From positions 682,001 through 746,000 of the forward strand of contig NZ_SNYO01000001.1 in NCBI RefSeq assembly GCF_004363095.1: a DNA stretch of 64,000 bases. Direction: 5' to 3'. How positions within the stretch are numbered: position 1 is the first letter of the stretch; every line of letters starts with the position of its first letter. Position numbers and translations under genes: made by a program. A model generated the notes under the pieces. The model was not told the DNA's origin. It did not search any database and saw only the letters and a list, made by a program, of their open reading frames with translations. Of the stretch, positions 497 through 20,169 are shown piece by piece. The DNA is from Actinomycetospora succinea (lineage in GTDB: Bacteria > Actinomycetota > Actinomycetes > Mycobacteriales > Pseudonocardiaceae).

Positions 497-2146
497 GTGA
501 TGGACACGGCCGGGACACCGGAGCCGGACTGGGTGTCGACGATGGCCGACGAGGTCATCGAGGCGGCCGGCCCCGGCAACAAGATCGTCTGCGCCTCGGG
601 CCTGAGCCCGTCGGGCCCGATCCACCTCGGCAACCTGCGCGAGGTCATGACGCCGCACCTCGTCGCCGATGAGATCCGCCGCCGTGGCCACGACTGCGAG
701 CACCTCATCTCGTGGGACGACTACGACCGCTACCGCCGCGTGCCCGCCGGCGTCGACCCGGCGTGGTCCGAGCACATCGGCAAGCCGCTCTCGGCGGTGC
801 CGGCCCCGTTCGGCAGCCCGTTCGACTCCTGGGCCGAGCACTTCAAGGCCCCGATGATCGCGGCGCTCGAGGACCTCGGGGTGCCGTTCCGCGGCGTCAG
901 CCAGACCGAGATGTACACCTCGGGCGCCTACCGCGACCAGGTGCTCCTGGCGATGCGCGAGCGGCAGAAGATCGACGGCATCCTCGGCCGCTTCCGCACG
1001 AAGAAGAAGGACGCGGCAGCGGACGACGACCCCGATGATGATGCCGACGTCGTCACCAGCGCCGAGTACTTCCCGTTCAAGCCCTACTGCGGCGGCTGCG
1101 GGCGCGACGACACGACGATCACCGCGTACGACGACGACTCCACCGAGATGACCTACACGTGCGCGTGCGGGTTCGGCGAGACGGTGCTGCTGCGCGACTT
1201 CACCCGCGGCAAGCTCGTGTGGAAGGTCGACTGGCCGATGCGCTGGGCCTACGAGGGCGTGCACTTCGAGCCCTCCGGCGTCGACCACTCCTCGCCAGGG
1301 TCGTCGTACCAGGTCGGCGGGCTGATCGTCGACGAGGTCTTCGGCGGGCGGCAGCCGATCGGCCCCATGTACGCGTTCGTCGGGATCACCGGCCAGGCGA
1401 AGATGTCGAGCTCGCGCGGCTCCGTGCCGACGCCGGGTGACGCCCTGGAGATCCTCGAGGTGCCGGTGCTGCGCTGGCAGTTCGCGCGCCGCCGGCCCAA
1501 CCAGGCGATCAAGGTCGCGTTCGACCAGGAGATCCACCGGCTCTACGACGAGTGGGACGCCCTCGGGCGCAAGGTGGCCGCGGGCACGGCGGGCGGGATC
1601 GAGACCACCGGCCACGTCCGCGCGGTGACCACCGCCGAGCGCGAGCTGCCCCGCACCCCGGAGCCGGTGGCGTACCGGACGCTGGCGTCGGTCGTCGACA
1701 TCACCGCGGGCGACCCGGCCCAGCTCGAGCGCATCCTCGCCGGGGTCGGCGCCACCCTCGAGGGCGCCCGCCCGCGCCTGGACCGCGCCGCGCAGTGGGT
1801 CGAGAACTACATGCCCGACGACGCGCACACGCGCCTGCGCGACGAGCCCGACACCGCGCTGCTCGCCTCGCTCGACGACCAGGACCGCGAGGCCGTCGCC
1901 ATGCTGCGCGACCACCTCACCGACGACTGGTCGCTCGACGGCCTGACGACCCTGGTCTACGGCGTGCCCAAGAAGCAGGCCGGCCTGCCGCTCGACGTCA
2001 AGCCCACCGACGAGCTCAAGGCCGCCCAGCGCCGCTTCTTCGTCGTCGTCTACCAGCTGCTCGTGGGCGCCGACACCGGCCCGCGCCTGCCCACGCTGCT
2101 GCTCGCCGCCGGTCCGGAGCGCGTGCGCCACCTGCTCGGCGGCTGA
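497..2146 (+). CDS. lysS: Lysyl-tRNA synthetase, class I
   Basis: This 549-residue enzyme charges tRNA-Lys with lysine in the cytoplasm. It is the class I (archaeal-type) LysRS, not the commoner class II form: the HIGH-like signature is HLGN at residues 43-46 and the KMSKS-like loop is KMSSS near residue 302, both hallmarks of the class I Rossmann catalytic core. Cysteine pairs (CGGC and CAC, about residues 200-225) look like a zinc-binding insert, and the C-terminal third is the helical anticodon-binding region. An AGGAGG ribosome site at 481-486 precedes GTG 497. ATG 500 is an equally possible start one codon later. Some actinobacteria carry both LysRS classes, so this may not be the only LysRS. 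Confidence 0.95.
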   Translation: MMDTAGTPEPDWVSTMADEVIEAAGPGNKIVCASGLSPSGPIHLGNLREVMTPHLVADEIRRRGHDCEHLISWDDYDRYRRVPAGVDPAWSEHIGKPLSAVPAPFGSPFDSWAEHFKAPMIAALEDLGVPFRGVSQTEMYTSGAYRDQVLLAMRERQKIDGILGRFRTKKKDAAADDDPDDDADVVTSAEYFPFKPYCGGCGRDDTTITAYDDDSTEMTYTCACGFGETVLLRDFTRGKLVWKVDWPMRWAYEGVHFEPSGVDHSSPGSSYQVGGLIVDEVFGGRQPIGPMYAFVGITGQAKMSSSRGSVPTPGDALEILEVPVLRWQFARRRPNQAIKVAFDQEIHRLYDEWDALGRKVAAGTAGGIETTGHVRAVTTAERELPRTPEPVAYRTLASVVDITAGDPAQLERILAGVGATLEGARPRLDRAAQWVENYMPDDAHTRLRDEPDTALLASLDDQDREAVAMLRDHLTDDWSLDGLTTLVYGVPKKQAGLPLDVKPTDELKAAQRRFFVVVYQLLVGADTGPRLPTLLLAAGPERVRHLLGG

Positions 2147-2147
2147 G

Positions 2148-2888
2148 TCAGCGGAAGAACTGCCCGAGCACGTTGCTCGCGCCGGACTGCTCGCCGCCGC
2201 CGTGGCCGCCGATGCGGCTGATCGGCACCTCCTCGGACGGCTGCACGATGACGAAGCCCTGGCCGGCGAAGGTCATCGTGAACGCCTCGCCCGTCGTGCG
2301 GCCGAGCAGCGTGCCGAGCCCGACCTGGTCGGCGCGGTGCACCCCGGTCTGCAGGCCCGCCGACCACGCGACGGCGGCCTCCGGGTCGGCGTAGGTGGGC
2401 TGGTCGACGTTGAGCACGACCGGCGAGCCCTTGCAGGTGATGGCGAGGCGCCCGCGGCCGGAGAAGACGCAGTTGAACAGGCCCGCGCCCGACATCGATG
2501 CGGCGCCGGACACCATCTGGATGTCGTAGGACAGCGTCGGCTCGAAGGCCAGCACGTTCTTGCCGTTGATCGACAGGGCGTCGTGCGGGCCCTCGAGGTC
2601 GATGAGGTGGACGTCCTGGGCGGCGTCGGCGAGGAAGACGTCGCCCCGGCCGGCGATCTTCATCAGCGGGACGCCCTCGCCGGTCAGCTGCTTCTTGAGG
2701 AAGCCGCCGATCCCGCCGGAGCCGAGGGCCTCGAACCGCACGTCGCCCTGGAAGGCGACCATCGACCCCTGCCGGGCGAGGCACTCCCCGGCGAGCTCGA
2801 CCTTGAGCATCTTCGAGTTCTGGAGGCGCAGGCCCGGCTGAGCCGACTCCTGCTCCTGGTTCTCCGGGGCGAAGAGGTTGCTGCGCAC
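2148..2888 (-). CDS. AIM24 family protein
   Basis: This 246-residue protein of the AIM24/TIM-barrel-unlike beta-rich family is named after a yeast mitochondrial protein. Bacterial members have no defined biochemical role. Family features are the repeated glycine-rich beta strands (GDVRFEALGSGGIGGFLKK, AGRGDVFLADAAQDVHLIDL, GEAFTMTFAGQGFVIVQP). No signal peptide or membrane helix is seen, so it is probably cytoplasmic. The C-terminus is Gly/Ser rich. It converges tail to tail with lysS with only one base between the stops, and lies 12 bases downstream of the sortase gene on the same strand, so the two may share a transcript. Confidence 0.8.
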   Translation of the reverse strand: MRSNLFAPENQEQESAQPGLRLQNSKMLKVELAGECLARQGSMVAFQGDVRFEALGSGGIGGFLKKQLTGEGVPLMKIAGRGDVFLADAAQDVHLIDLEGPHDALSINGKNVLAFEPTLSYDIQMVSGAASMSGAGLFNCVFSGRGRLAITCKGSPVVLNVDQPTYADPEAAVAWSAGLQTGVHRADQVGLGTLLGRTTGEAFTMTFAGQGFVIVQPSEEVPISRIGGHGGGEQSGASNVLGQFFR

Positions 2889-2900
2889 GCGGGGAGTCTG

Positions 2901-4382
2901 TCAGCGCGGCGACGCGAAGACGACGACGTTGTCGACGTACGAGCGGGTGGTGCGGTCGAACGGCCCGCCGCAGGTCACGAGGCGCAGCGCGGGGCCGGCG
3001 GTGGGGCCGTAGACGCGGTCGGTCGGGAAGGTGTCCTTGCCGAACTGCTCGACCGAGTCGACGACGAAGTGCGCGACGGTGCCGTCGCTGCGCGGGACGT
3101 CGATCGCGTCGCCGGCCCGCAGCGCGCGCAGCCGCGAGAACACGCCGGGGCCCTGCCACGAGTCGACGTGCCCGACGACGACGGCGGGCCCGGCCTCGCC
3201 CGGCACCGATCCCTCGCTGAACCAGCCGACGTCCTGCGGGCCCGCCGGCACCTGGAGCGCGCCGCCCCGGGGCTCGACGCCGAGGTCGGTGAGGTGACCG
3301 GCCGCGATCCCGGCCGCGGGCACCGAGAGCCCGGTGGGACGCAGCGCCGACCGCGACGACGCCGGGAGGTCGACCACCGGCATCGGGGCCGCGGCCGGGG
3401 CGAGCGAGGGCGCGGACGCCCCGGCGAGCCCGCCGTAGCCCGCGGGCACGCCGCCGTTGGGGGTCCGGCGCGGCGCGGGGGTGGGCGACGAGGTGGTCGA
3501 GGGGGACGGCGTCGCGGTCGGCGCCGGTCCCGTCGAGGCCGGCGGGCCGGCCGGCGGGACGGCGCTCGACGGGGAGCGCGACGGCGGGGTCGGGCTCGCG
3601 GTGGTCGTGGGGGTGGCGGGCGCCGGGGCGGCGGCGCCGTCCGGGACCGCGGTGACCGCGAGCGCGCCCTGCGGGTCGCGGGTGACGATCACGGAGCTCA
3701 CCGACGAGCTGGCGACGGGCAGCGTGACCTGCGTCGACTGCCCGGAGCTGGTGGTGACGTCCATGGTCCAGGTGCGGGCGTCCACGGTGGCGTAGTCCGA
3801 GGCCGCGCCGTAGACGTCGTCGGCGAGCGGCCCGCCGCCCTGCGCGGTGACGTCGACGGCGCCGACCCCGGCGGCCGCGGAGATCACGCGCACGAGCGCG
3901 GACCCGGGCGGCGGCGCGACGGTGCGGTCGCTGAGCAGCTCCGCCTGCGGGGTGGCGTTCGGGCCGACGTCGACGAACGCCGCGGTCTGCGCGTTCCCGG
4001 GGGTGACGGCGACCGAGGCGGTGAGCGCGGGCGGGGTCGACGCGGCGGCGCCGGCGGGGCGGGCCTGCAGCGTGTAGACGCCGGGCGCGGCCGGCAGGTA
4101 GTCGGTCAGCCCGCGGTACGAGACGTTCGCGGCGACCCTGGTCAGGGGCAGCCCCGGCCCCTCGGCGTACATGTCGACGGCACCGGTCGACGGCGAGAGG
4201 TGGGCGACGCGCAGCAGGCCGTCCTCGTCGGGGGCGGCGAGAGTCGACGACGTCGAGGCCAGCGACACGAGCCCGTGCTCCGCGGCGATCCCCGTCCCGC
4301 CGATGCCGAGCGCGGTCGTGACGAGGGCCAGCGCGGCCGTGCCGGCCCGCCGCCCGACCGGCCGCCCCGTTCGTGGTGCCAT
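2901..4382 (-). CDS. DUF4397 - class F sortase fusion, secreted/anchored
   Basis: This 493-residue exported protein has an N-terminal signal or anchor segment (about residues 10-35), a beta-rich DUF4397 region (about 55-250, starting LLRVAHLSPSTGAVDMYAEG), a Pro/Ser/Thr-rich wall-spanning linker (about 250-310) and a C-terminal sortase domain (about 340-493). The sortase triad is visible: His405 in VVVGHVDS, Cys471 in LVTCGG and Arg480 in RTTRSY. This is the class E/F pattern of actinobacteria. Sortases cut and transpeptidate wall-sorting signals outside the membrane. DUF4397 is found in surface proteins and is of unknown function. Fusion to the enzyme suggests a substrate-, wall- or self-binding module. 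No LPxTG-type substrate gene is next to it. Confidence 0.85.
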   Translation of the reverse strand: MAPRTGRPVGRRAGTAALALVTTALGIGGTGIAAEHGLVSLASTSSTLAAPDEDGLLRVAHLSPSTGAVDMYAEGPGLPLTRVAANVSYRGLTDYLPAAPGVYTLQARPAGAAASTPPALTASVAVTPGNAQTAAFVDVGPNATPQAELLSDRTVAPPPGSALVRVISAAAGVGAVDVTAQGGGPLADDVYGAASDYATVDARTWTMDVTTSSGQSTQVTLPVASSSVSSVIVTRDPQGALAVTAVPDGAAAPAPATPTTTASPTPPSRSPSSAVPPAGPPASTGPAPTATPSPSTTSSPTPAPRRTPNGGVPAGYGGLAGASAPSLAPAAAPMPVVDLPASSRSALRPTGLSVPAAGIAAGHLTDLGVEPRGGALQVPAGPQDVGWFSEGSVPGEAGPAVVVGHVDSWQGPGVFSRLRALRAGDAIDVPRSDGTVAHFVVDSVEQFGKDTFPTDRVYGPTAGPALRLVTCGGPFDRTTRSYVDNVVVFASPR

Positions 4383-4434
4383 CCCGCCGTCTCCGATGCT
4401 CGCTGTGGTCTCCGCCCCGACCCCGACGCCGCAT

Positions 4435-4448
4435 CGTTCGGCCGAACG
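4435..4448. promoter_or_regulatory. Perfect 14-base palindrome between divergent genes
   Basis: CGTTCGGCCGAACG is an uninterrupted dyad in the 152-base gap between the sortase gene (leftward) and the CoA-transferase gene (rightward). It lies 53 bases above the sortase start. Its position fits an operator. No matching regulator is adjacent and the binding protein is unknown. Confidence 0.4.
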
Positions 4449-4534
4449 GGGGAAGCGGTTCGGATGATCGGGACGTCGTGCGTCACAACGAGCGGTGTCG
4501 CGCGGGGATGCGCACGGAGGGGCACGATCACGGC

Positions 4535-5686
4535 ATGCCCCTGCCCCTCGACGGCGTCCTCGTCGTGGCCTGCGAGCAGGCCGTCGCCGCCCCGCTCGCG
4601 ACGCGCCACCTCGCCGACCTCGGCGCTCGCGTGATCAAGATCGAACGGCCGGGACGCGGCGACTTCGCGCGCGACTACGACACCGTCGTCGGCGGGCTCT
4701 CGAGCCACTTCGTCTGGCTCAACCGCGGCAAGGAGAGCGTGACGCTCGACCTCAAGGACCCGGACGCGCTCGCCGACCTCCAGCGCATCGTCGACAAGGC
4801 CGACGTCTTCGTGCAGAACTTCGCACCCGGCGCCGCCGAGCGTCTCGGGCTCGGCGCCGACGAGCTGCGCCGCGAGCACCCGCGGCTCGTGCACTGCAGC
4901 ATCTCGGGCTACGGCTCGGCGGGCCCGTACCGCGACGCCAAGGCCTACGACCTGCTGATCCAGGCCGAGACCGGGCTGGTGACGATGACCGGCACCCCCG
5001 AGCACCCGGCGAAGGCCGGCATCCCCGCGGCCGACATCGGCGCCGGGATGTACGCGTTCTCCGGGATCCTCGCGGCGCTCCACGAGCGCGAGCGCACGGG
5101 GGAGGGCACCGCGCTCGAGGTCAGCCTCTTCGACGCGCTGAGCGAGTGGATGGGCTTCCCGCTGACCTACGCGGCCGGCGCCGGGCGCGCCCCGCAGCGC
5201 GCGGGCACCTCGCACCCCGCGATCGCCCCGTACGGCACGTTCACCGCGGGCGACGGCGCCGAGGTCGTCCTGGCGATCCAGAACGAGCGCGAGTGGGTGC
5301 GGTTCTGCGCCGAGGTCCTGGGCGACGAGGCGATCGCGACCGACGCCCGCTTCGCCACCGGGTCGGCGCGCCTCGAGCACCGCGACGAACTGCACGCGGC
5401 GATCGGCAGGGTGTTCGGGTCGCTCGACGGCGAGGCGGTGGTCGCCCGCCTCGTGGCCGCCGGCATCGCCCACGCCCGCCAGCGCGACCTCGTCGGCGAC
5501 GAGGGCGTGCTCACCCACCCGCAGCACCTCGCCCGCGACCGCTGGCGCACCGTCGGCTCCCCGGGCGGCGAGGTGCCCGCGCTCGTCCCGCCCATCGGCC
5601 TGCCCGGCCGCCCGCTGCGCATGGGCCCGATCCCCGACGTCGGGGAGCACACCGACGCCGTCCTTTCCGAGTTCCGGAAGACCTGA
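4535..5686 (+). CDS. CoA-transferase family III (CaiB/BaiF)
   Basis: This 383-residue protein of the CaiB/BaiF (class III) CoA-transferase family moves CoA between organic acids without a covalent phosphate step. Typical features are the N-terminal GVLVVACEQAVAAPLATRHLADLGA, RVIKIERPGRGDFARDYD, LNRGKESVTLDLK (nucleotide/CoA region) and NFAPGAAERLGL. The frame is open further upstream, but homology starts at MPLPLDGVL, so ATG 4535 is chosen, with GGAGGGG 14 bases upstream. The length is normal for the family. It is followed 47 bases later by an MHS transporter gene, suggesting uptake and activation of an organic acid. The substrate is not determined. Confidence 0.92.
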   Translation: MPLPLDGVLVVACEQAVAAPLATRHLADLGARVIKIERPGRGDFARDYDTVVGGLSSHFVWLNRGKESVTLDLKDPDALADLQRIVDKADVFVQNFAPGAAERLGLGADELRREHPRLVHCSISGYGSAGPYRDAKAYDLLIQAETGLVTMTGTPEHPAKAGIPAADIGAGMYAFSGILAALHERERTGEGTALEVSLFDALSEWMGFPLTYAAGAGRAPQRAGTSHPAIAPYGTFTAGDGAEVVLAIQNEREWVRFCAEVLGDEAIATDARFATGSARLEHRDELHAAIGRVFGSLDGEAVVARLVAAGIAHARQRDLVGDEGVLTHPQHLARDRWRTVGSPGGEVPALVPPIGLPGRPLRMGPIPDVGEHTDAVLSEFRKT

Positions 5687-5711
5687 GCGTCCGAGGTTGT
5701 CCTCGCCGGTC

Positions 5712-5732
5712 GGGTGCGCTTCCCTCGCACCC
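5712..5732 (+). promoter_or_regulatory. Perfect hairpin directly before the MFS start codon
   Basis: GGGTGCG, a 7-base loop, then CGCACCC gives a perfect 7-bp stem ending two bases before ATG 5734. There is no Shine-Dalgarno sequence in the 47-base gap, so the stem sits where a ribosome would bind. It could dampen translation of the transporter or be a weak terminator after the CoA-transferase gene. Confidence 0.35.
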
Positions 5733-5733
5733 C

Positions 5734-7023
5734 ATGGCCGGTCCCTCGCGCAGGAGCATCTTCACGGCGAGCTTCGTCGGCACGTCGATCGAGTGGTACG
5801 ACTACTACATCTTCGGCACCGCCGCGGCGCTGGTGTTCGGGAGCCTCTTCTTCCCCCAGTTCTCCTCGGTCGCCGGGACGCTCGCCGCGTTCGGCACCTT
5901 CGCGGTCGGCTTCATCGCCCGCCCGCTGGGCGCCGCGGTCATCGGCCACTTCGGCGACCGCCTCGGCCGCAAGGCCATGCTGGTGCTGACGCTGCTGCTC
6001 ACGGGCGGGGCGACGGCGCTGATCGGCCTGCTGCCGACGTACGCGGCGATCGGGATCGGCGCCCCGCTGCTGCTCGTGCTGCTGCGCCTCCTGCAGGGCT
6101 TCGGCGTCGGCGGCGAGTGGGGCGGCGCCGTGCTCATCGCCACCGAGCACGCGACGAGCCGGCGCCGCGCGGTCTACGGCAGCTTCGCCCAGTTCGGCGT
6201 CCCGATCGGTGTCCTGACGTCCAACCTCGCCTTCCTCGCCGTCGCCGGCCTGCCCGACGAGGCGTTCCGCTCGTGGGGCTGGCGGATCCCGTTCCTGCTG
6301 TCGGTGGTGCTCGTGGTGGTCGGCTTCGTCGTGCGCAGCCGCCTGCAGGAGGCGCCGGAGTTCGAGAAGGTGAAGGCCGCCCGGGAGACGAGCACGGTGC
6401 CGGTGGCCGAGCTGGTCCGGCGGCACCCGAGGACGCTCGTGCTCGCGAGCCTCGCCTCGATCGCGCCGCCGGCGATCGGCTACACGGTGATCGTCTACAT
6501 GCTGAGCTACGGCACGACGGTGCTCGACTACGAGCGCACCACCCTGCTCACGCTGATCATGCTGTCGACCGTCGTGTGGGTCGCGACGATCATCGGGGCC
6601 GCCGTGCTCGCCGACCGCGTCGGCTCGCGGCCGGTGTACGTCGTCGGCGCCCTCACCGCCGTGATCTGGCCCCTGCCGATGTTCGCGCTGGTCAACACGG
6701 GTTCAGCGGCCCTGGCCGGGCTCGCCTTCGCGGTGGCCGCCGTCGTCCAGGGCATCATGGCCGGTGCCCAGGGCGGGCTGTTCAGCGAGATCTTCCCGGT
6801 GCGCGTGCGCTACAGCGGGATCTCCATCGCCTACCAGGTCGGCGGCATGGTCGGCGGCGCGGTGACGCCGATCGTCGCCACCGCGCTGTTCGGCGCCACC
6901 GGCTCGTCGACACCGATCGCGCTCTACGTCGCGGCGCTCTCGCTGCTGACGCTGCTCGCCGTGTTCGGCCTGCGCGAGGGCTCCGCGCGGACAGCGGCAG
7001 AGCCGGAGCATCAGCCGAATTGA
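5734..7023 (+). CDS. MFS transporter, metabolite:H+ symporter (MHS) family
   Basis: This 429-residue 12-helix inner-membrane carrier belongs to the MHS family, proton symporters for organic acids, shikimate, alpha-ketoglutarate, proline/betaine and aromatic acids. The family's opening motif GTSIEWYDYYIFGTAAALVF is present, as is the loop 2-3 signature GHFGDRLGRK and the GEWGGAVLIATEH segment of helix 5. The start is set at ATG 5734 because homology begins there; upstream codons in this frame belong to a shadow of the CoA-transferase gene. It shares about the same layout as the second MHS gene at 31877. It probably imports a substrate for the neighbouring CoA-transferase or the operon at 7084. 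Confidence 0.92.
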   Translation: MAGPSRRSIFTASFVGTSIEWYDYYIFGTAAALVFGSLFFPQFSSVAGTLAAFGTFAVGFIARPLGAAVIGHFGDRLGRKAMLVLTLLLTGGATALIGLLPTYAAIGIGAPLLLVLLRLLQGFGVGGEWGGAVLIATEHATSRRRAVYGSFAQFGVPIGVLTSNLAFLAVAGLPDEAFRSWGWRIPFLLSVVLVVVGFVVRSRLQEAPEFEKVKAARETSTVPVAELVRRHPRTLVLASLASIAPPAIGYTVIVYMLSYGTTVLDYERTTLLTLIMLSTVVWVATIIGAAVLADRVGSRPVYVVGALTAVIWPLPMFALVNTGSAALAGLAFAVAAVVQGIMAGAQGGLFSEIFPVRVRYSGISIAYQVGGMVGGAVTPIVATALFGATGSSTPIALYVAALSLLTLLAVFGLREGSARTAAEPEHQPN

Positions 7024-7070
7024 TGTCGACCATTCCCGATCGCTGTTTCTCTGCCCGCCGACGACATTCT

Positions 7071-7083
7071 TACGATCGGCCCT
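7071..7083 (+). promoter_or_regulatory. Leaderless promoter -10 element of the Rieske operon
   Basis: TACGAT at 7071-7076 lies seven bases before the GTG at 7084. Transcription would therefore start at or within a base of the start codon, giving a leaderless mRNA, which is common in actinobacteria. No Shine-Dalgarno sequence is present, which supports this start. Confidence 0.45.
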
Positions 7084-7509
7084 GTGCGGATCGCGGTGTC
7101 ACGACTCGACGAGTTCCCCCCGGGAGAGCGCCGGATCGTCGCGGCGGGCCGGAAGTCGATCGGCGTGTTCCGGGTCGGTGACCGCTTCTACGCCCTGAAC
7201 AACCACTGCCCCCACCAGGGCGGACCGTTGTGCCTCGGGCGCACGGCGCCGTGGGTGCGCTCGACGGCGCCCGGCGACTACCGCGTCGACGGCGACGCGG
7301 CGCTCGTGGCGTGCCCCTGGCACGGCTGGGAGTACGACCTCGCCACCGGCCAGTCGTTCCTCGGCCCGGGGGAGCCGCCGGTGCGCACGTACGGGGTGTC
7401 GGTGGGCGCCCGGGAACCGGGGCCGTACGTGGTCGAGACGTACCCGGTGCACGTCGAGGACGCGTGGGTCGTGGTGGACACCGCGACGCGCGGAGAGGAC
7501 TCCACATGA
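7084..7509 (+). CDS. Stand-alone Rieske [2Fe-2S] ferredoxin
   Basis: This 141-residue protein consists of one Rieske domain. The cluster ligands are Cys42 and His44 in HCPHQGG and Cys77 and His80 in CPWHGWEYDL, the standard CxH-x(n)-CxxH pattern. Such small Rieske proteins pass electrons to oxygenases, but no oxygenase large subunit or reductase is encoded next to it. The first gene of a tight operon, its stop overlaps the start of the amidohydrolase gene (ATGA, 7506-7509). The GTG start is supported by the leaderless -10 just upstream. It could alternatively be a NirD-like or NDO-type ferredoxin with a remote partner. Confidence 0.9.
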   Translation: MRIAVSRLDEFPPGERRIVAAGRKSIGVFRVGDRFYALNNHCPHQGGPLCLGRTAPWVRSTAPGDYRVDGDAALVACPWHGWEYDLATGQSFLGPGEPPVRTYGVSVGAREPGPYVVETYPVHVEDAWVVVDTATRGEDST

Positions 7510-8606
7510 CGATCACCGAGAGCGCGGCCACGACGACGCCGCGCCGGACGGGCCGCACGCTCGTCGACGCCGACATCCACCCCCACGCCCTGGCCCCGCA
7601 GATCGCGGCGCGGCTCGCCCCGGCGCACCGGCGGCGCTGGGAGATGTTCGGCAGCCGCGTGCTCGCGCCGCCGGAGATCTACCCGCGGGTGCGCAACGCC
7701 GGGTTCCGCGCCGACGCCTGGCCGCCCGGCGGGTTCCCCGGCAGCGACCTCGGCATGGTCCGCGACCAGCTCCTCGACGAGTTCGACGTCGACCACGGCA
7801 TCCTCATCCCGCTGCAGGGCCACAGCTGGGGCATGGAGGCGCCGGAGTACGCGAACGCGCTGTGCGGCGCCCTCAACACCTGGCTACGCGAGGAGTGGCT
7901 CGACCCCGAGCCGCGGCTGCGCAGCTCGATCGCCATCCCGCACGAGGCCCCCGACCTGGCCGCCGCCGAGATCCGGCGCCACGCCGGCGACCCCGGGTTC
8001 GTGCAGGTCCTGCTCTCGACCGGTACCGAGCTCTCCCTCGGGCGCCGGAACTACTGGCCGATCTACGCGGCGGCGCAGGAGGCCGGGCTGCCCGTCGCCG
8101 CGCACACCGGCGGGCTCGCGCAGCACCGCTCGGCGGGCTGGCCGTCGTTCTACCTCGAGGAGCACGTCTGGAACGGCAACACCATGGCGGCGCTGCTGAC
8201 GAGCTTCCTGCTCGAGGGCGTCTTCGAGGAGTTCCCGTCGCTGCAGCTCGTGCTCGTCGAGGGCGGGATCGCGTGGGCCGGGCCGCTGCTGTGGGCGCTG
8301 GACCAGGCGTGGTCGACGCTGCGCGAGGACGTGCCGCACCTGACCCGCCCGCCGTCGGAGATCGTGCGCGAGCGCGTCTGGTTCACCACGCAGCCCATCG
8401 AGGAGCCCGACGACCCGGGGCACCTCGAGCTCGCGCTGCGCCACCTCGACATGGACGACCGCATCCTGTTCGCCTCGGACTACCCGCACTGGGACTTCGA
8501 CTCGCCGCGCCACGCGCCGCGGGCCTTCCCGGCGGCGATCCGCGACACCGTGATGGGCGCCAACGCCTGCCGCCTCTACGGCCTGCCCGCGCGGGAACAG
8601 CCGTGA
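7506..8606 (+). CDS. Amidohydrolase-2 family metal-dependent hydrolase/decarboxylase
   Basis: This 366-residue TIM-barrel protein belongs to the amidohydrolase-2 (ACMSD-related) family, which includes aminocarboxymuconate-semialdehyde decarboxylase, gamma-resorcylate decarboxylase and oxalomesaconate hydratase. Metal-ligand motifs are visible: the DADIHPH strand-1 motif, a barrel His in AAHTGG, and the late Asp in FASDYPHWDFDSP. The start ATG 7506 overlaps the Rieske stop by four bases, and the stop overlaps the next start (GTGA), so translational coupling is likely. The reaction is probably hydrolysis or non-oxidative decarboxylation of a ring or ring-cleavage acid; the substrate is unknown. 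Confidence 0.9.
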   Translation: MTITESAATTTPRRTGRTLVDADIHPHALAPQIAARLAPAHRRRWEMFGSRVLAPPEIYPRVRNAGFRADAWPPGGFPGSDLGMVRDQLLDEFDVDHGILIPLQGHSWGMEAPEYANALCGALNTWLREEWLDPEPRLRSSIAIPHEAPDLAAAEIRRHAGDPGFVQVLLSTGTELSLGRRNYWPIYAAAQEAGLPVAAHTGGLAQHRSAGWPSFYLEEHVWNGNTMAALLTSFLLEGVFEEFPSLQLVLVEGGIAWAGPLLWALDQAWSTLREDVPHLTRPPSEIVRERVWFTTQPIEEPDDPGHLELALRHLDMDDRILFASDYPHWDFDSPRHAPRAFPAAIRDTVMGANACRLYGLPAREQP

Positions 8607-9670
8607 GCGCACCGGTGCTGGCGGGCGCCGTCGACTGCGACGTCCACGTCGCCCCGGCGCACCTCGACGTGCTCACCGGCTACTTCGACGACTACTGGCG
8701 CGGCTACGTCGTCGACGGCGGGATCTCGCTCTCGCCCACCCAGGCCGGCGCGTACCCGCCGGCCGCGCCGACGAGCGCGACCCCGGAGGCGCGCGCCGCG
8801 GGCCTGCTCCCCGCCGCGGGCACCGTCGACGCACTGCGCGACGCGCTGCTCGACCCCGCCGGCCTGGCGACGGCGGTGCTGAGCTGCACGAGCGCGTTCC
8901 CGGTCAACCGCAACCCGTACTACGAGGCGGCCCTGACCCGCGCGGTCAACGACTGGCTGCTCGAGCACTGGCTGGCCGCCGAGCCCCGCCTGCGCGCGAG
9001 CATCGTCGTGCCGACCCTCGACACGCGCGCCGCCGTCGCGGAGATCGAGCGGGTCGGCGCGCACCCCGGCGTCGTCCAGGTCCTGCTCCCGGTCCGCACC
9101 GACGCGCCGTGGGGCAACGTGCGCCACCGTCCCGTGCTCGAGGCCGCGGCGGAGCACGGGCTGGTCGTCGGCCTGCACGCCTGGGGCCGCGTCGGGCACG
9201 CGGGCACCCCGTCCGGGCTGACCCACACCTACCTCGAGGACTACCTGACCAACTCCCAGGTCGCCGCGCAGGCCCAGCTCACGAGCCTCGTCACCGAGGG
9301 CGCGTTCGCCGCGGTACCGGGGCTGCGGGTGACGTTCCTGGAGTGCGGCTTCTCGTGGCTGCCGGCCCTGCTGTGGCGCTTCGACAAGGACTGGAAGGGC
9401 GTCTGGCGCGAGGTCCCGTGGGTCGCGGGGCGGCCCTCGGCGATCGTGCGCGAGCACGTGCGGTTCACGACGGCGCCCGCCGCGCTCCCGCAGGACCCGG
9501 CGCGCGTCCGCGAGGTGCTCGAGCTCCTCGGCGGCACCGGCCCGCTGCTCTGGGCCAGCGACCACCCCCACGACCACGGCCCCGGCGGGCAGTGGCTGCT
9601 CGACGCGCTCACCGACGACGAGCGGACGGCGGTGACCCGCGACAACGCCGTCGCGTGGTACGGGCTGTGA
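8603..9670 (+). CDS. Amidohydrolase-2 family protein, second paralogue
   Basis: This 355-residue protein is a second amidohydrolase-2 family member with the same architecture as its upstream neighbour: strand-1 motif DCDVHVAP, a barrel His in GLHAWGR, and WASDHPHDHG near the C-terminus. Sequence similarity to the upstream protein (for example TFLECGFSWLPALLWRFDKDW versus the matching block there) shows the pair arose by duplication and then diverged. The two may form a hetero-oligomer or act on successive intermediates. GTG 8603 overlaps the previous stop, and its stop overlaps the next GTG at 9667. The substrate is not known. Confidence 0.88.
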   Translation: MSAPVLAGAVDCDVHVAPAHLDVLTGYFDDYWRGYVVDGGISLSPTQAGAYPPAAPTSATPEARAAGLLPAAGTVDALRDALLDPAGLATAVLSCTSAFPVNRNPYYEAALTRAVNDWLLEHWLAAEPRLRASIVVPTLDTRAAVAEIERVGAHPGVVQVLLPVRTDAPWGNVRHRPVLEAAAEHGLVVGLHAWGRVGHAGTPSGLTHTYLEDYLTNSQVAAQAQLTSLVTEGAFAAVPGLRVTFLECGFSWLPALLWRFDKDWKGVWREVPWVAGRPSAIVREHVRFTTAPAALPQDPARVREVLELLGGTGPLLWASDHPHDHGPGGQWLLDALTDDERTAVTRDNAVAWYGL

Positions 9671-15193: not shown

Positions 15194-17026
15194 CTACGTC
15201 CCGGAGCGGTAGAGCTGCGTCACCTGGGCGGGGGTGAGCGCCGTGGTCATCACGGCGGCGTCGTACATGCTGCCCGCCCACGCGTAGGTGGTCGGCGCGT
15301 TGGGCCAGCCGTTGAGGTTGTCCCAGCCCACGCGCCACCAGCCGGTGCGCGTCGTCCCGCCCTCGGCCGTGGTGGTCGTCGGGTCGGCGGCGACCTGGGC
15401 GCCGTCGACGTAGAGCACCATCCCCGCCGGGGAGAGCGTCGCGACGGCGAGGTGCCAGGCGTCGTCGTTGTAGGCGTTCGGGCTGGTGATCGTCTTCGTG
15501 GCGTTGGGGTAGACGCCGAACGTCAGCTGCCCGGAGTTGGTCATGTAGAGGTGGCGGTCGTAGCCGCCGGAGGTCAGGCCGGTCCGCGAGCTGCCCCAGC
15601 CGATCATCCGGCCGCCCAGGACGGTGTTCGTGCGGAACCACCCGACGATCGAGAAGACGTTGGTGCTCGCGATCGCGGTGGTGCTCGTGGTGGCGACGTA
15701 GGGCGTGAGGACCGCCGACCCGTTGATCGTCACCGCGCGTGCCGGGGTGTCGCGCGGGCACGGCCTGGTGGCGGCGGCCGTGAAGCCGAGCAGGCCGTTG
15801 TAGGTGCCGGTGGTCCCCCCGGTGAGCGAGCGGGCGGTCGCCAGGTTGGCGACGTTCGCGTCGTCGAGGGGCCAGGCGATGTAGTTGCTGCCGAAGCCGG
15901 CGGTGGCGCCCAGGCAGGTGAAGTACGGGGCGGCGCCCGCGGTGTTCGTCGTGTTGGTCAGCGTCCCGGTGAACGCCGCGAGCGTGGGGTTCGGCGCGAT
16001 CGTCAGCGCGAGGGCCAGCGCCATGCCGAGGAACGTCGACGTTGCGCCCGGTCCGCGGCGGGGCCCGGGGTCGGGGGCGGACGGCGCGGGCGGCGCGGGC
16101 GGCGGGCCGGGCGCGGTCGGGCCCGCGTCGTCCACGAGCGGGTGCCGGTGGGCGGCGATCAGCCCGTACACCATCGGCAGCAGCCAGAACGCGGTCATCA
16201 CGATCCACAGCCACCAGGGCATGTGCACGCCGCTGGTCAGGACGTTGCCGCCCGCCTGCTCGGGCCGCGGGGTGACGAGCACGCCCTTCTCGCCGCTGAC
16301 CAGGTCGAGCACGCCGCCGGTGTCGGCGCTGACGCGGGTCGGGAGCATGCCCGTCGAGACCAGGTTGATGGTCGCCTCGCCGGCGTCGGCCGACGACCCG
16401 AGCGTCACCGTGCCGACGAACGGGCGCAGCCACACGCTGACCGCGGCGAGGAGGAGCGACAGGCCGAGCACCCGCGTCGGCACCGCCCACAGCCACGGCA
16501 GCCAGCGCCGCGTGGCCCAGAAGAGCAGCACGATCCCGACGATGAGGGCCGGCAGGGCCCACATCAGCCAGCCGAGCCCGGGCAGGACGAGGACGACGCG
16601 GCCGGTGAGGTCCGGCGCGTGCAGCGTCCACGGGTCGACGGCGCCGTTGATGTCGCCGCGGGTCTTCATGCCGATGCCGCCCGGGCCGGTCTCGAGGGCG
16701 ACGACGCGGTGGGTCACCGACCGGCCGAGCTCCGCGGGCGGCCGGAAGGTGACGATCTCGCCGACCCCGATCACGGTGTCGGGCCGCGTGAGCACCACCG
16801 AGCCCACGGGCGCGGCGGTGCCCATCGAGGGCGTGGTGATGATCTGCCAGCGCCCCCCGGAGAGGTGCCAGACCAGGGCGCCGGCGAACAGCACCACGAC
16901 CACGGTCGCAGCGAGCACGCCGGGCACGATCGACGTCCGTCGACCGGTGTCCGGGGGGAGCGGCAGCGGGAGGGGAGCCGTCACCGCGTCGGGGTCGACG
17001 TCGGTGTCGGGGAGGGACGTACCCAC
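15194..17026 (-). CDS. SipW-type signal peptidase I fused to a LamG domain
   Basis: This 610-residue membrane protein has two parts. Residues 30-290 are a SipW/ER-type signal peptidase: a first helix (33-55), nucleophile Ser67 in TTPSMG, PVGSVVL, base His106 in SVTHRVV, the KTRGDIN block (121-127) and three further helices. His replaces the Lys of ordinary bacterial enzymes. After a Pro-rich linker (300-325), residues 327-350 form another hydrophobic stretch ending TLAAFTGTLTNTTNTAG, which resembles the SipW-dependent signal of the neighbouring substrate. Residues 370-610 are a LamG/concanavalin-like beta sandwich (FSIVGWFRT, WHLAVATL, LYVDG). It may therefore release its own C-terminal domain. 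It lies 21 bases after the TasA-like gene. GTG 17026 is the start; no good ribosome site is seen. Confidence 0.85.
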   Translation of the reverse strand: MGTSLPDTDVDPDAVTAPLPLPLPPDTGRRTSIVPGVLAATVVVVLFAGALVWHLSGGRWQIITTPSMGTAAPVGSVVLTRPDTVIGVGEIVTFRPPAELGRSVTHRVVALETGPGGIGMKTRGDINGAVDPWTLHAPDLTGRVVLVLPGLGWLMWALPALIVGIVLLFWATRRWLPWLWAVPTRVLGLSLLLAAVSVWLRPFVGTVTLGSSADAGEATINLVSTGMLPTRVSADTGGVLDLVSGEKGVLVTPRPEQAGGNVLTSGVHMPWWLWIVMTAFWLLPMVYGLIAAHRHPLVDDAGPTAPGPPPAPPAPSAPDPGPRRGPGATSTFLGMALALALTIAPNPTLAAFTGTLTNTTNTAGAAPYFTCLGATAGFGSNYIAWPLDDANVANLATARSLTGGTTGTYNGLLGFTAAATRPCPRDTPARAVTINGSAVLTPYVATTSTTAIASTNVFSIVGWFRTNTVLGGRMIGWGSSRTGLTSGGYDRHLYMTNSGQLTFGVYPNATKTITSPNAYNDDAWHLAVATLSPAGMVLYVDGAQVAADPTTTTAEGGTTRTGWWRVGWDNLNGWPNAPTTYAWAGSMYDAAVMTTALTPAQVTQLYRSGT

Positions 17027-17047: not shown

Positions 17048-17713
17048 TCAGCCCGTCAGGGTCCAGGTGATCGGCTGCGACGCGGTCAGGCCCTGGTAGG
17101 TGTTGCCGGCCGAGACGTCGACGTACGTCGTGAACGTCAGCGGGATCGTCGAGCCGGAGTTGGCCGCCGGGATGAGTGCCGCGGGCAGGTTGACCGTGGT
17201 GCCGGCCAGGGTCGAGGCGACCGTGTCGGCCTGGACCACGGTCGCGCCCGAGGTGACCTTGACGTGCAGCTTGCTGCAGAAGTCGGTCGCGGTGCCCGCG
17301 CCGGCCGCCGCCGACTGCGTGCAGGGGCCGAAGCCCATGGTGAACGCCGTCGCCGCAGCCGTGCCGGTGTTCTTGAAGTTCACCAGCGTCGTGACGTTGT
17401 TGGTCGTCCCGGCCGCGTTCGAGGGCAGCATCGCGGTGTTGCCGCCGTACTTGTTGAACGTGGCGCACGTGGCGGTGTTGGTGCTGACGCCGCCGCCGTC
17501 GGTGCTGTTGCACGCCGTGGTGCCCGTGGCGCCGGTCTCCTGGAGGATCAAGGAGCCGGTGGCCGCCGTGTCGTTGGTGTTGGTGATCGTCGCGACGAAC
17601 GCCGAGAAGGTGTTGGTCATGGCCAGCGACATGAACAGTGCGCCGACCAGACCGGCCGCGACGATCAGCCGCACGAACCGGCGCTGCTGGGGGGACCCGT
17701 TGTCCCTGGGCAT
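17048..17713 (-). CDS. TasA-like secreted protein with SipW-dependent signal peptide
   Basis: This 221-residue secreted protein has a basic N-region, a hydrophobic core (about residues 15-35) and the SipW-type boundary NTFSAFVATITNTNDTAATGS, with cleavage expected around Ser/Ala 37-38. The mature part is Thr/Ala/Asn-rich and beta-strand-like (TTLVNFKNTGTAAATAF, PLTFTTYVDV), with four cysteines able to form disulfides, as in the TasA/camelysin family of matrix-fibre subunits. The ATG at 17713 is chosen because GGAAGG sits eight bases upstream; GTG 17722 overlaps that ribosome site. Its lower GC and Thr/Asn bias reflect surface-protein composition. It is first in an operon with the SipW-LamG gene, its presumed processing enzyme. 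Confidence 0.8.
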   Translation of the reverse strand: MPRDNGSPQQRRFVRLIVAAGLVGALFMSLAMTNTFSAFVATITNTNDTAATGSLILQETGATGTTACNSTDGGGVSTNTATCATFNKYGGNTAMLPSNAAGTTNNVTTLVNFKNTGTAAATAFTMGFGPCTQSAAAGAGTATDFCSKLHVKVTSGATVVQADTVASTLAGTTVNLPAALIPAANSGSTIPLTFTTYVDVSAGNTYQGLTASQPITWTLTG

Positions 17714-17908
17714 CCGAACCACCTTCCGAGCGACGATGAGTGCTGCCCGGAAGGTCGGTTCAGGATCTCCCGCGCATCGTCACATCGGACACGCGGACCT
17801 TTCGATTAACCCACAGAGCCTAACGAGTGACGCCAAGTTCGGCGTGTCGCTGACCGACGCGCTCGCGAGACCTCCGTCGGAGTGATGGCGCGAGCCTGGT
17901 CGTAGGGC

Positions 17909-20077
17909 TCAGAACGGTGGTGGGTCGTCGGGGTCGAAGGCTGTCGCTGCAGGCGTCGGCGGGGTCGTGGTGGTGCTGTTCGACGTCGCGGTGAAGCGCC
18001 GGCGCCAGTCGTCCAGGTGCTCGCTGTCGGTGTCCTGGTCGGGCCAGCCGTCGTCGGGCAGCGGTCGCGCCCGTCCGGCGGGCTGTGGCGCCGGTAGCGG
18101 CCGGAGGACCTTGGGAGGACGGGTGGTGTGGGTGATCCCGGCACGGGTGCGGATGACGAACCAGCCGGGGATCGGCTGGCGCACGTGCCAGCCGGCGAGG
18201 TGCTTGGCGCGGTGGTCGTGGGTGCACCAGGCGCCGAGGTTCCAGGTGACGGTGGGCCCGCCGTGGGCGTGGTCGCGGGTGTGGTCGATCTCGGCGCGGT
18301 GGGCGGCGCGGCGGCACCAGGGCACGACGCAGTGCCGGTCGCGGGCGCGGGTCCAGCGGTCGGCTTCGGCGCCGGGGCGGCGGCGTCGCCACTGATCGGG
18401 GCCGCTGTCGGCGTCGGGTGGGCGCCCCAGCCGGCCGGTGCCGGCGAGGTCGGCGAGGCGGGCCTGCACTTCGGTGAGCAGCGGTGCCCATCCGGGGTGG
18501 TCGTCGGGGTTCAGGGCGGCGAGCAGCGTCGTCGGAACCTGGAGTTCGACGATCGCGCCGGTCCGGGTCGCGCCCGGTGCTCGCCCCCGCGTGCGGGGGC
18601 CGGCTGGTCGGCTGCGGGCGAGCAGGACGTGGTGGAGGTGCCCGTCGTCGTCGACGAGCACGACGCGCCATTCGCCGTGGTGGCGGGCGTGGACGAGGTC
18701 GCGCGCCACGGCGGCGGTGACCGCGCCGTAGCCGGGCACGGTGGCGGGGTGCTCGTCGAGCCCGAGCGCGGTGGACAGGCGGAGCCGGATCTCGACGGTG
18801 CCGTGCCGCAACCGCCCGTCCCGCCGCTCCGGCTCCTGCTCCGGCTCGCCGGGCAGGCCGGGCAGGCCGGGCAGGCCAGGGAGGTCCACGGCGCCCTGGG
18901 CGTCGGGTGAGCCCGGCGCCGGCACCGACAGCTCGAGGTCGTGACGACCGCTCCCGGTCTCGTGGCCGGCCTCGTCGTCCGCCTCGTCGTCCGCCTCGTC
19001 GTCGGCGCCGGCGTCAGCGCCGAGGTCAGCGCCGTCGTCAGCACTGTCGTCCTCGGGGCCACTCTCGTGCGGTCCATCAACCGGCCCGCCGTCATCCGGC
19101 CCGCCACCGTCCGGCCCGCCACCGTCCGGCCCGCCACCGTCCGGCCCGCTGTCCGGCCCGTCGTCCGGCCCGTCGTCAGGTCCGTCGTCAGGTCCGTGAT
19201 CGGGCCCGCCGTCCTGGGGCCCGCCGTCGTCGGGGTCGTCGGGGCGCTGGAGGGCGTGGTACTCCGCGGCGAGCAGGGCCACGAGGTCGTCGTCGGTCAT
19301 CCCGGCGGTGGAGCCGTCGAGCAGACGAGTGCCGACCTGCAGGCGCAGCTGGTTGATCGGGGTCAGCACTCCCTGCCCGCGCACCTGCGCGGCCAGGGCC
19401 TCCACCCGGGCCATCGACGCGATCCCGTCCGCCGCGGGCGCATCGGCCAGCGACAACGTCGCCGTCCCCGACGGGTTGCACACCAACCCCACCCGCCCCC
19501 GCGCCTCCGCCCGCTTGCGGCGCCGTTCCGCCCAGTCCGGGTCGATCGCCACCACGACCTCGCTGAGCCGCTCCCGCAACGCCATCACCGGCATCCCACC
19601 CGCCTCGGGCAGGACCTCGGCCACCGCGAGCCGGGCGTGGTCCTCGGACAGGTCGGCCACGCCCTCGCTGATCGCGCGGACCTTCGGCCCGTCGAGCGTG
19701 CCCGACCACAACGCCTCACCCAGCAACGGCAACCGGCAGAACAGGTCCTCGGCCAGCTCCAGGCGCCGCGACGCGGTGGTGCGCGCACACCCGAGCACGG
19801 CGGCGACCTCGTCGCCGGAGAACTCGTCCGAGCTCGGCAACCGCCGCGGGCGCCCCTCGGCGTCCTCGGTGGCCATCCCCAGCTCCCGCAGCCCGGCCAG
19901 CAGCTGGGCCTCGGCGCGGTTGTGCACCGCGAACCGGGCCCGCACGAACGCCGCCAGCTCCGGGCCGTCCAAGCTGCTCGGATCGACCGTGTCCAGCAGC
20001 GCATGAAGATCGGCGTCGGGAGCACGACCAGCCAGCCGGGCCACCAGCCCGGGCCGCTGATCCTGCTCCACGCTCAC
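17909..20077 (-). CDS. DUF222 - HNH endonuclease (13E12 type), copy 1
   Basis: This 722-residue protein has an N-terminal helical DUF222 domain (about residues 1-230, with HNRAEAQLLAGLRELG and ELVAVLGC-like helices), a long Asp/Gly/Pro-rich acidic insert (about 300-395) and a C-terminal HNH nuclease domain: WTRARDRHCVVPWCRR, AEIDHTRDHAHGG, then a histidine in CTHDHRAKH, with Cys pairs for a structural zinc. The family is the actinobacterial 13E12 repeat family. The frame runs open to 20140, but that would include the promoter. GTG 20077 lies seven bases after the -10 element, so a leaderless start is chosen. A close paralogue is at 41919-43940. The cleavage target is unknown. Confidence 0.9.
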   Translation of the reverse strand: MSVEQDQRPGLVARLAGRAPDADLHALLDTVDPSSLDGPELAAFVRARFAVHNRAEAQLLAGLRELGMATEDAEGRPRRLPSSDEFSGDEVAAVLGCARTTASRRLELAEDLFCRLPLLGEALWSGTLDGPKVRAISEGVADLSEDHARLAVAEVLPEAGGMPVMALRERLSEVVVAIDPDWAERRRKRAEARGRVGLVCNPSGTATLSLADAPAADGIASMARVEALAAQVRGQGVLTPINQLRLQVGTRLLDGSTAGMTDDDLVALLAAEYHALQRPDDPDDGGPQDGGPDHGPDDGPDDGPDDGPDSGPDGGGPDGGGPDGGGPDDGGPVDGPHESGPEDDSADDGADLGADAGADDEADDEADDEAGHETGSGRHDLELSVPAPGSPDAQGAVDLPGLPGLPGLPGEPEQEPERRDGRLRHGTVEIRLRLSTALGLDEHPATVPGYGAVTAAVARDLVHARHHGEWRVVLVDDDGHLHHVLLARSRPAGPRTRGRAPGATRTGAIVELQVPTTLLAALNPDDHPGWAPLLTEVQARLADLAGTGRLGRPPDADSGPDQWRRRRPGAEADRWTRARDRHCVVPWCRRAAHRAEIDHTRDHAHGGPTVTWNLGAWCTHDHRAKHLAGWHVRQPIPGWFVIRTRAGITHTTRPPKVLRPLPAPQPAGRARPLPDDGWPDQDTDSEHLDDWRRRFTATSNSTTTTPPTPAATAFDPDDPPPF
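19081..19210. repeat. In-frame 15-base tandem repeat in HNH copy 1
   Basis: CCGGCCCGCCACCGT recurs three times exactly at 19096-19140, preceded by a variant copy and followed by 12-base derivatives to about 19210. It encodes the Asp/Gly/Pro-rich acidic linker (Gly-Gly-Pro-Asp-Gly units) between DUF222 and the HNH domain. Copy 2 has a shorter version, so the array length varies. It is coding, not CRISPR. Confidence 0.8.
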
Positions 20078-20084
20078 GAGGACA

Positions 20085-20107
20085 ACGCTAGGACCGACCC
20101 CCGACAA
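20085..20107 (-). promoter_or_regulatory. PafBC-type damage promoter of HNH copy 1
   Basis: Reading leftward, TTGTCGGGG, eight bases, then TAGCGT matches the mycobacterial RecA-independent damage promoter pattern TTGTCRGTG-N8-TANNNT used by PafBC, with one G for T. The -10 ends seven bases before GTG 20077, so the transcript should be leaderless. The same element with the same spacing stands before copy 2. Confidence 0.75.
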
Positions 20108-20139
20108 CGCCGCCCGAGAAACCCCAGGACAGAGCCCCA

Positions 20140-20169
20140 CTCCAGGTCACGGAACGGTAACGATCCTCG
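20140..20169. promoter_or_regulatory. Conserved upstream block shared by the two HNH genes
   Basis: CTCCAGGTCACGGAACGGTA and the ten bases after it recur, with few changes and one inserted base, at 44002-44032, at the same distance from the damage promoter. It is outside any coding region on copy 1. It may be an activator or UP-type binding site. Confidence 0.5.

Follow-up and report, generated by a model that had tools for sequence, protein, structure and literature searches.

Among the closest described systems are those of Bacillus. There, the signal peptidase SipW cuts TasA, a substrate with T-W-A at positions P3-P1, A at P1' and F at P2', according to the accessible part of PMC10269814. 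The TasA residues right after this cut (28-38, with F29 and I32) constitute a donor strand, which inserts into the following subunit; the N-terminus of TapA resembles this strand (accessible part of PMC9674648). The available sections of PMC10151520 describe filaments that start when TapA donates its N-terminus, and a tapA stop codon that overlaps the start codon of sipW.

We analysed a stretch of 64,000 nucleotides of Actinomycetospora succinea, called here the window. On its minus strand, a reading frame open throughout from 17026 to 15194 (gene 15194..17026) begins with GTG and encodes a protein of 610 amino acids. The order along the chain is a Ser67/His106 peptidase of the ER type, a Pro-rich linker, a segment like a signal peptide with a predicted cut between residues 350 and 351, and a LamG domain. 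This gene is one of nine fused loci found. The observation is real and conserved, and the sequences are best explained by a fusion of enzyme and substrate genes in a SipW/TasA-like operon. We consider it fairly probable that the protein is a natural precursor, where a SipW-like peptidase (S26B, Ser-His) is joined to one of its own substrates and is cut after Ala350, freeing the LamG part.

The peptidase core covers residues 33-172 (16511..16930, minus strand) and contains TM1, the catalytic domain and TM2. The predicted nucleophile Ser67 (16826..16828) and the predicted general base His106 (16709..16711; a His and not a Lys, as in the ER/SipW type) are invariant in the ten aligned peptidases. 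The acidic box from Asp125 to Asp131 (16634..16654) is also kept, with both Asp invariant in 10/10. These four residues are placed as a Ser-His signal peptidase of the S26B/SipW type requires. The TIGR02228 model matches the window protein with an E of 4.4e-11. Its score is 42.9 for the whole chain and 46.0 for the peptidase part, below the cut-off of 51.85. The Pfam S26 models give no match in the window protein, and PF10502 is matched by two of the five fused proteins scanned (best E 0.00096). A PDB search with the peptidase profile A4 recovered SEC11A and SEC11C chains (three sequences, E from 2.5e-8 to 1.6e-7), and nothing besides these chains at E up to 1. The best match is human SEC11A (7p2p, E 2.5e-8). 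By this profile match, the homology of the core to S26B is clear, despite models that stay under their cut-offs. The NCBIfam SipW equivalog NF046067 gives scores of 16.2 and 18.3, against a cut-off of 190. So the enzyme is predicted to work like SipW, outside of this equivalog.

In the own genome, the peptidase profile and the neighbour profile have one full match each. Two more matches to the peptidase profile are weak (E 0.015 and 0.057) and span 35 and 52 positions. With one full match to each profile, and for these two profiles, the evident candidate substrates are two: the neighbour and the enzyme itself.

The protein has five hydrophobic segments by hydropathy (33-51, 151-169, 186-204, 269-291 and 326-350). 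The third and the fourth, with a predicted outer insert between them (TM3 to TM4, residues 186-291, 16154..16471, minus strand), are common to the subfamily. In the class and family genome searches, full-length profile matches stand apart from those to the S26 core only. A Pro-rich linker follows, predicted to be cytoplasmic (residues 292-325, 16052..16153, minus strand). It varies across the nine fused loci, with 19-94 residues and a mean pairwise identity of 22%, when measured between the last residue of the peptidase match and a point 22 residues ahead of the cut. Two Arg/Lys precede the first segment, two follow the second, three precede the third and two precede the fifth. Of the 15 residues on the inner side of TM4, one is Arg and two are acidic, contrary to the positive-inside rule. 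We infer an N-in topology with the catalytic and LamG domains outside, which the charges mostly fit and the inner side of the fourth segment does not.

The LamG/ConA-like domain occupies residues 442-602 (15221..15703, minus strand; PF13385, E 1.6e-13). Its score of 51.5 is over the gathering threshold of 27.6, and PF13385 was matched in all five fused proteins scanned, this one included. The first-pass annotation had placed a peptidase core (Ser67, His106) ahead and a LamG domain behind, and both are located where it said. A scan with short peptide patterns, which reaches close relatives only, gave four loci that match the LamG part alone, three from Mucilaginibacter and one from Agreia. LamG relatives outside the operon (L006, L008, L031-L034) have 39-46% identity. 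Those of G062, G089 and Agreia sit within open frames of 1577, 1237 and 1916 residues.

The internal signal peptide is predicted from hydropathy and site comparison at residues 322-350 (15977..16063, minus strand). It consists of Arg323-Arg324, directly before the fifth segment, the hydrophobic FLGMALALALTIA at 332-344, and PNPTLA. The cut-site motif TLA/AFTGTLTNTTNTA (the slash marks the predicted cut) spans residues 348-363 (15938..15985, minus strand). Residue 351 is the A of AFTGTL, and the cut falls between nucleotides 15977 and 15976. This motif resembles the cut site TFS/AFVATITNTNDTA of the neighbour. We wrote the pattern [ST].[ASG][ASG][FYW].{2,3}[ILVA][TAR]N[ST].[ND]TA only after both sequences were known. 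In the six-frame translation of the window, it matches at 15985 (fused gene) and 17611 (neighbour) only, and in 100000 shuffles of the fused protein it has no match. These two matches and the segment at 326-350 bear out the earlier proposal of a hydrophobic stretch followed by a motif like the cut site of the neighbour.

The other eight fused loci provide a conservation test independent of this post-hoc pattern. All of them present the same residue classes at P3, P1, P1', P2' and P8'. Among the nine, P3 is T (8) or S (1), P1 is A (5), S (3) or G (1), P1' is A, S or G, P2' is F (8) or Y (1), and P8' is always N. In G109, positions P9' and P12' do not follow the exact pattern. The TLTNT-like motif of the first-pass annotation, sought in homologues, has a TN, RN or AN type at that place in 8/8 of the other fused loci. 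The sequence T-L-A/A-F thus shows the features of SipW-class substrates (hydrophobic core, small P1 and P1', aromatic P2'), likewise in 9/9 fused loci. The cut-site finder tries an aromatic P2' first, and the register was checked again in the alignment of five fused loci and by eye. The LamG cut of L123 is ambiguous (PG/SF or FS/GY), and the search start for L071 was set by hand.

We searched the genomes of 100 relatives, 394 of the class, 18 of the genus, 17 and 199 of two families, and 396 of the phylum, in sets that overlap one another. At most 13, 6, 12 and 6 first-look candidates per genome were scored (relatives, class, 199-genome family and phylum), so the counts are lower bounds. Loci were included when the match extended over both the peptidase and the outer domain. 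We excluded those that covered the S26 core only, which made up most of the matches in the class and 199-genome family searches. This gave at least 34 loci from 32 genomes, plus G1155 from another class. The LamG domain is fused in 9/34 loci (the own locus, G007, G014, G077, G109, G142 twice, G156 and G644), from eight genomes and three family groups. It is separate in 23/34, and also in G1155. It was not found at two of the 34 (the second locus of G791, and G807). The genus is patchy, with the gene in three of 18 genomes, the own one included.

The 23 separate LamG proteins start with the same kind of signal peptide. Their P2' is F, Y or W in 22 and L in one (G488), and P8' is N in 19. The LamG gene follows the peptidase gene in 18 of these loci and precedes it in five. 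In the order peptidase-LamG, the start codon overlaps the stop codon in 18/18, as ATGA (7) or GTGA (11). Such a tetramer ends the peptidase gene in three of 16 other loci, G807 included. Since separate LamG proteins carry the same signal peptide and their genes overlap the peptidase gene by ATGA or GTGA, we read the internal motif as the signal peptide of LamG, and the precursor as enzyme plus substrate. By this comparison, the internal segment is the LamG precursor's own signal peptide, retained when the two genes merged. In its position and its sequence, the SipW-type signal motif first seen in the peptidase chain is thus a genuine signal peptide, as judged from the separate LamG genes of related operons.

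The peptidase tree (34 sequences, root not inferred) needs two changes between the fused and separate states, one for eight loci in families f1/f4 (support 80/58) and one for G644. A single fused clade is not rejected (p-AU 0.226), and G644 is a long branch. Separate genes are favoured as the older state, because they are also present in the most distant members.

Other loci show particular features. In L138 (G807), a GTGA ends the peptidase gene at 4898 on the plus strand, LamG was not found, and a different cargo gene may start there. In L147 (G1155; 2091-5027, plus strand), the LamG protein matches the LamG profile three times and precedes the peptidase, whose tail has a run of Lys. The unfused peptidase of L070 (G345; 6774-8618, minus strand) has a long C-terminal tail of KPRQPR-like repeats, predicted to be cytoplasmic.

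The neighbour gene (17048..17722, minus strand) encodes a small predicted secreted protein with a cut site of the same class (motif 17564-17611). Its family is encoded at 34/34 loci and at the 35th, G1155. The neighbour profile was built from ten of these 34 loci. Read by eye, P2' is F or W in 35/35 neighbours. The automated finder misplaced the cut in four of the 35 and found none in one, so the neighbour counts were taken by eye. PF12389 (TasA/camelysin) has no match over the cut-off in the own genome and is absent from the families matched by the 11 neighbours scanned. A PDB search with the 31-row neighbour profile matched two TasA chains only, at non-significant E values of 1.4 and 1.7, and with the 11-row profile an antibody chain outranks them. 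The single-sequence AlphaFold model of the neighbour has a pLDDT of 41, useless for fold assignment. We judged two further matches as due to chance: PF12211 (E 0.047), and TIGR04090 (BsaA, SipW-dependent) in one of 11 neighbours (E 0.064), though the latter points in the same direction. In L069 (G337; 5360-6677, plus strand) there is a tandem pair of neighbour-family copies, both with Trp instead of Phe at P2'. Upstream of the neighbour gene of the window lies a large ORF (17909-20140, minus strand), in which acidic repeats of the DDGPD type form a long run. It has what we take to be an HNH-like end.

The mean pairwise identity among the nine fused loci differs along the chain. It is 54% for P3-P20', 45% for LamG, 44% for TM1-TM2 with the catalytic domain, 38% for TM3-TM4, and 22% for both the linker and the signal core. 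P3-P20' is then the best kept of the six stretches compared, while the linker and the signal core drift. A peptidase that bears a substrate and its export signal at the end of its own chain is a probable case of self-cleavage. Such an enzyme would probably cut itself and release a surface protein. An enzyme of this type is most likely the one that cleaves between A350 and A351.

Another reading is that a general LepB-type peptidase cuts LamG, or that another copy of the enzyme does it in trans, and the fusion just ensures 1:1 synthesis. We regard it as possible but doubtful, and its trans half overlaps with the best explanation. The start-stop overlaps in 18/18 unfused peptidase-LamG loci already couple both genes, a point in its favour. 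Against cleavage by LepB stands the aromatic P2': the accessible part of PMC10269814 covers 143 verified LepB substrates of E. coli, all of them lacking an aromatic residue there. From the same part, LepB is hindered by residues from P3 to P4' and by Trp at P2, and not by F at P2' alone. Since several positions hinder LepB, P2' is no sure sign of which enzyme cuts.

The fifth segment could also be a permanent anchor, which tethers an uncut LamG domain to the surface peptidase and keeps the motif as a strand of the LamG protein. We find this improbable, although conservation extends to P19' (F in 9/9 fused loci) and so exceeds the needs of the peptidase. This conservation could serve folding or assembly instead of cleavage. 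On the other side, the cut-site positions P3, P1, P1' and P2' are conserved in 9/9, a Pro lies within seven residues before the cut in 7/9, and in the separate homologues this segment serves as the N-terminal signal peptide. The length of the segment also bears on this reading. In the window protein, the hydrophobic core has 13 residues by eye (332-344) and 18 by a crude measure, the longest run without N, Q, H, P, K, R, D or E before the cut. By this measure, the nine fused loci have 14-25 residues with a mean of 18.0, against 18.2 in the separate LamG proteins, where two of 22 sites were mis-set. With these means, the fused segments do not exceed the ordinary signal peptides of the class in length. 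Human SPC reportedly admits h-regions under 18 residues, as given in the accessible part of PMC13385932. The longest segments (G007 and G644, with 23 and 25 residues by the crude measure) exceed this limit and would suffice for a full membrane helix. Taken alone, length does not settle whether the segment is cut.

If LamG had a precursor of its own, translated from a start codon within the linker, the fusion would be partly nominal. In seven of nine fused loci, an in-frame ATG, GTG or TTG near the linker has four of the five GGAGG bases upstream (a count made with no control). However, the best candidate in the window's gene has only three of five, no position is common to the loci, and the sole candidate of G156 falls within the hydrophobic core. 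We consider this very unlikely. An annotation or assembly artefact, or a sequencing error that joined two genes, is next to impossible. A single frameshift would join the two overlapping genes of related loci, but the independent genomes refute this reading: the nine fused loci come from eight genomes of three family groups, their linkers differ and no stop interrupts them.

Returning to the enzyme-substrate fusion, we propose the following course. The protein would insert N-in, with TM1 from inside to outside, the catalytic domain outside, TM2 back, TM3 outward again and a small outer domain. Then TM4 would return to the inside, the linker would stay there, and the fifth segment would cross outward and offer TLA/AF to an active site exposed on the outer side. 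The same or another copy of the enzyme would cut between A350 and A351. This would leave a four-TM peptidase, which would also process the neighbour, and a LamG protein with the new N-terminus AFTGTLTNTTNTAG, which is similar to the N-terminus of the mature neighbour. If TapA/TasA is a guide, strand donation by this N-terminus may initiate or cap a fibre built from the neighbour. The stretch that follows the cut is common to LamG and the neighbour, and the gene for LamG either overlaps that of the peptidase or is joined to it. We therefore propose LamG as a TapA-like minor component, with the neighbour as the putative fibre subunit. The LamG product may remain on the fibre made by the neighbour and need not be freely secreted.

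A stricter version supposes a single self-cut in cis. Each enzyme molecule would release exactly one LamG initiator of the fibre, with a donor N-terminus that exists only after the cut. We hold this version as tentative and rather unlikely. If true, the maturation of the enzyme and the start of a TasA-like fibre would be one event, and a donor-strand fibre system in Actinomycetota would be started by self-cleavage.

Viral polyproteins offer well-known examples of proteases joined to their substrates. A cellular counterpart would be a signal peptidase whose own chain includes a complete and conserved substrate signal peptide. Such a fusion would also give a ready-made single-chain system for the docking of signal peptides in an S26B enzyme. 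Among the matches listed in the open PMC literature, the titles and abstract starts showed no signal peptidase fused to LamG or to a substrate, in a search that left subscription journals mostly uncovered. The locus would likewise point towards a surface system of the TapA/TasA type in actinobacteria, which the open-literature search did not turn up.

Compared with known enzymes, the predicted catalytic core and its Ser-His arrangement are like those of the archaeal and ER signal peptidases (SEC11; TIGR02228). Unlike them, the window enzyme has two more TM segments, an outer domain and a cargo domain. The P-type signal peptidases LepB of E. coli and SPase I of S. pneumoniae cut their own chain, in a side reaction that inactivates them. 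Here a signal peptidase is likewise predicted to cut its own chain. In contrast to LepB and SPase I, the site is a complete and conserved signal peptide, and the cut would release a separate domain. SipW is not known to have TM3, the outer domain and TM4. The window enzyme has these extra parts, and its unit differs from that of B. subtilis in that the proposed minor component is a LamG protein. As a whole, the unit of peptidase, LamG and neighbour has a resemblance to tapA-sipW-tasA of Bacillus. As there and in sipW-calY of B. cereus, the gene of an ER-type peptidase lies beside small secreted substrates (accessible parts of PMC10151520 and PMC10269814). The same parts give, for B. subtilis, the aromatic P2' (F in TasA), the stop/start overlap (tapA-sipW) and the pairing of a minor and a major secreted component, all with likenesses here. 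Nevertheless, peptidase and substrates are separate proteins in the SipW system of B. subtilis, whereas here the peptidase carries a predicted substrate, fused at its C-terminus.
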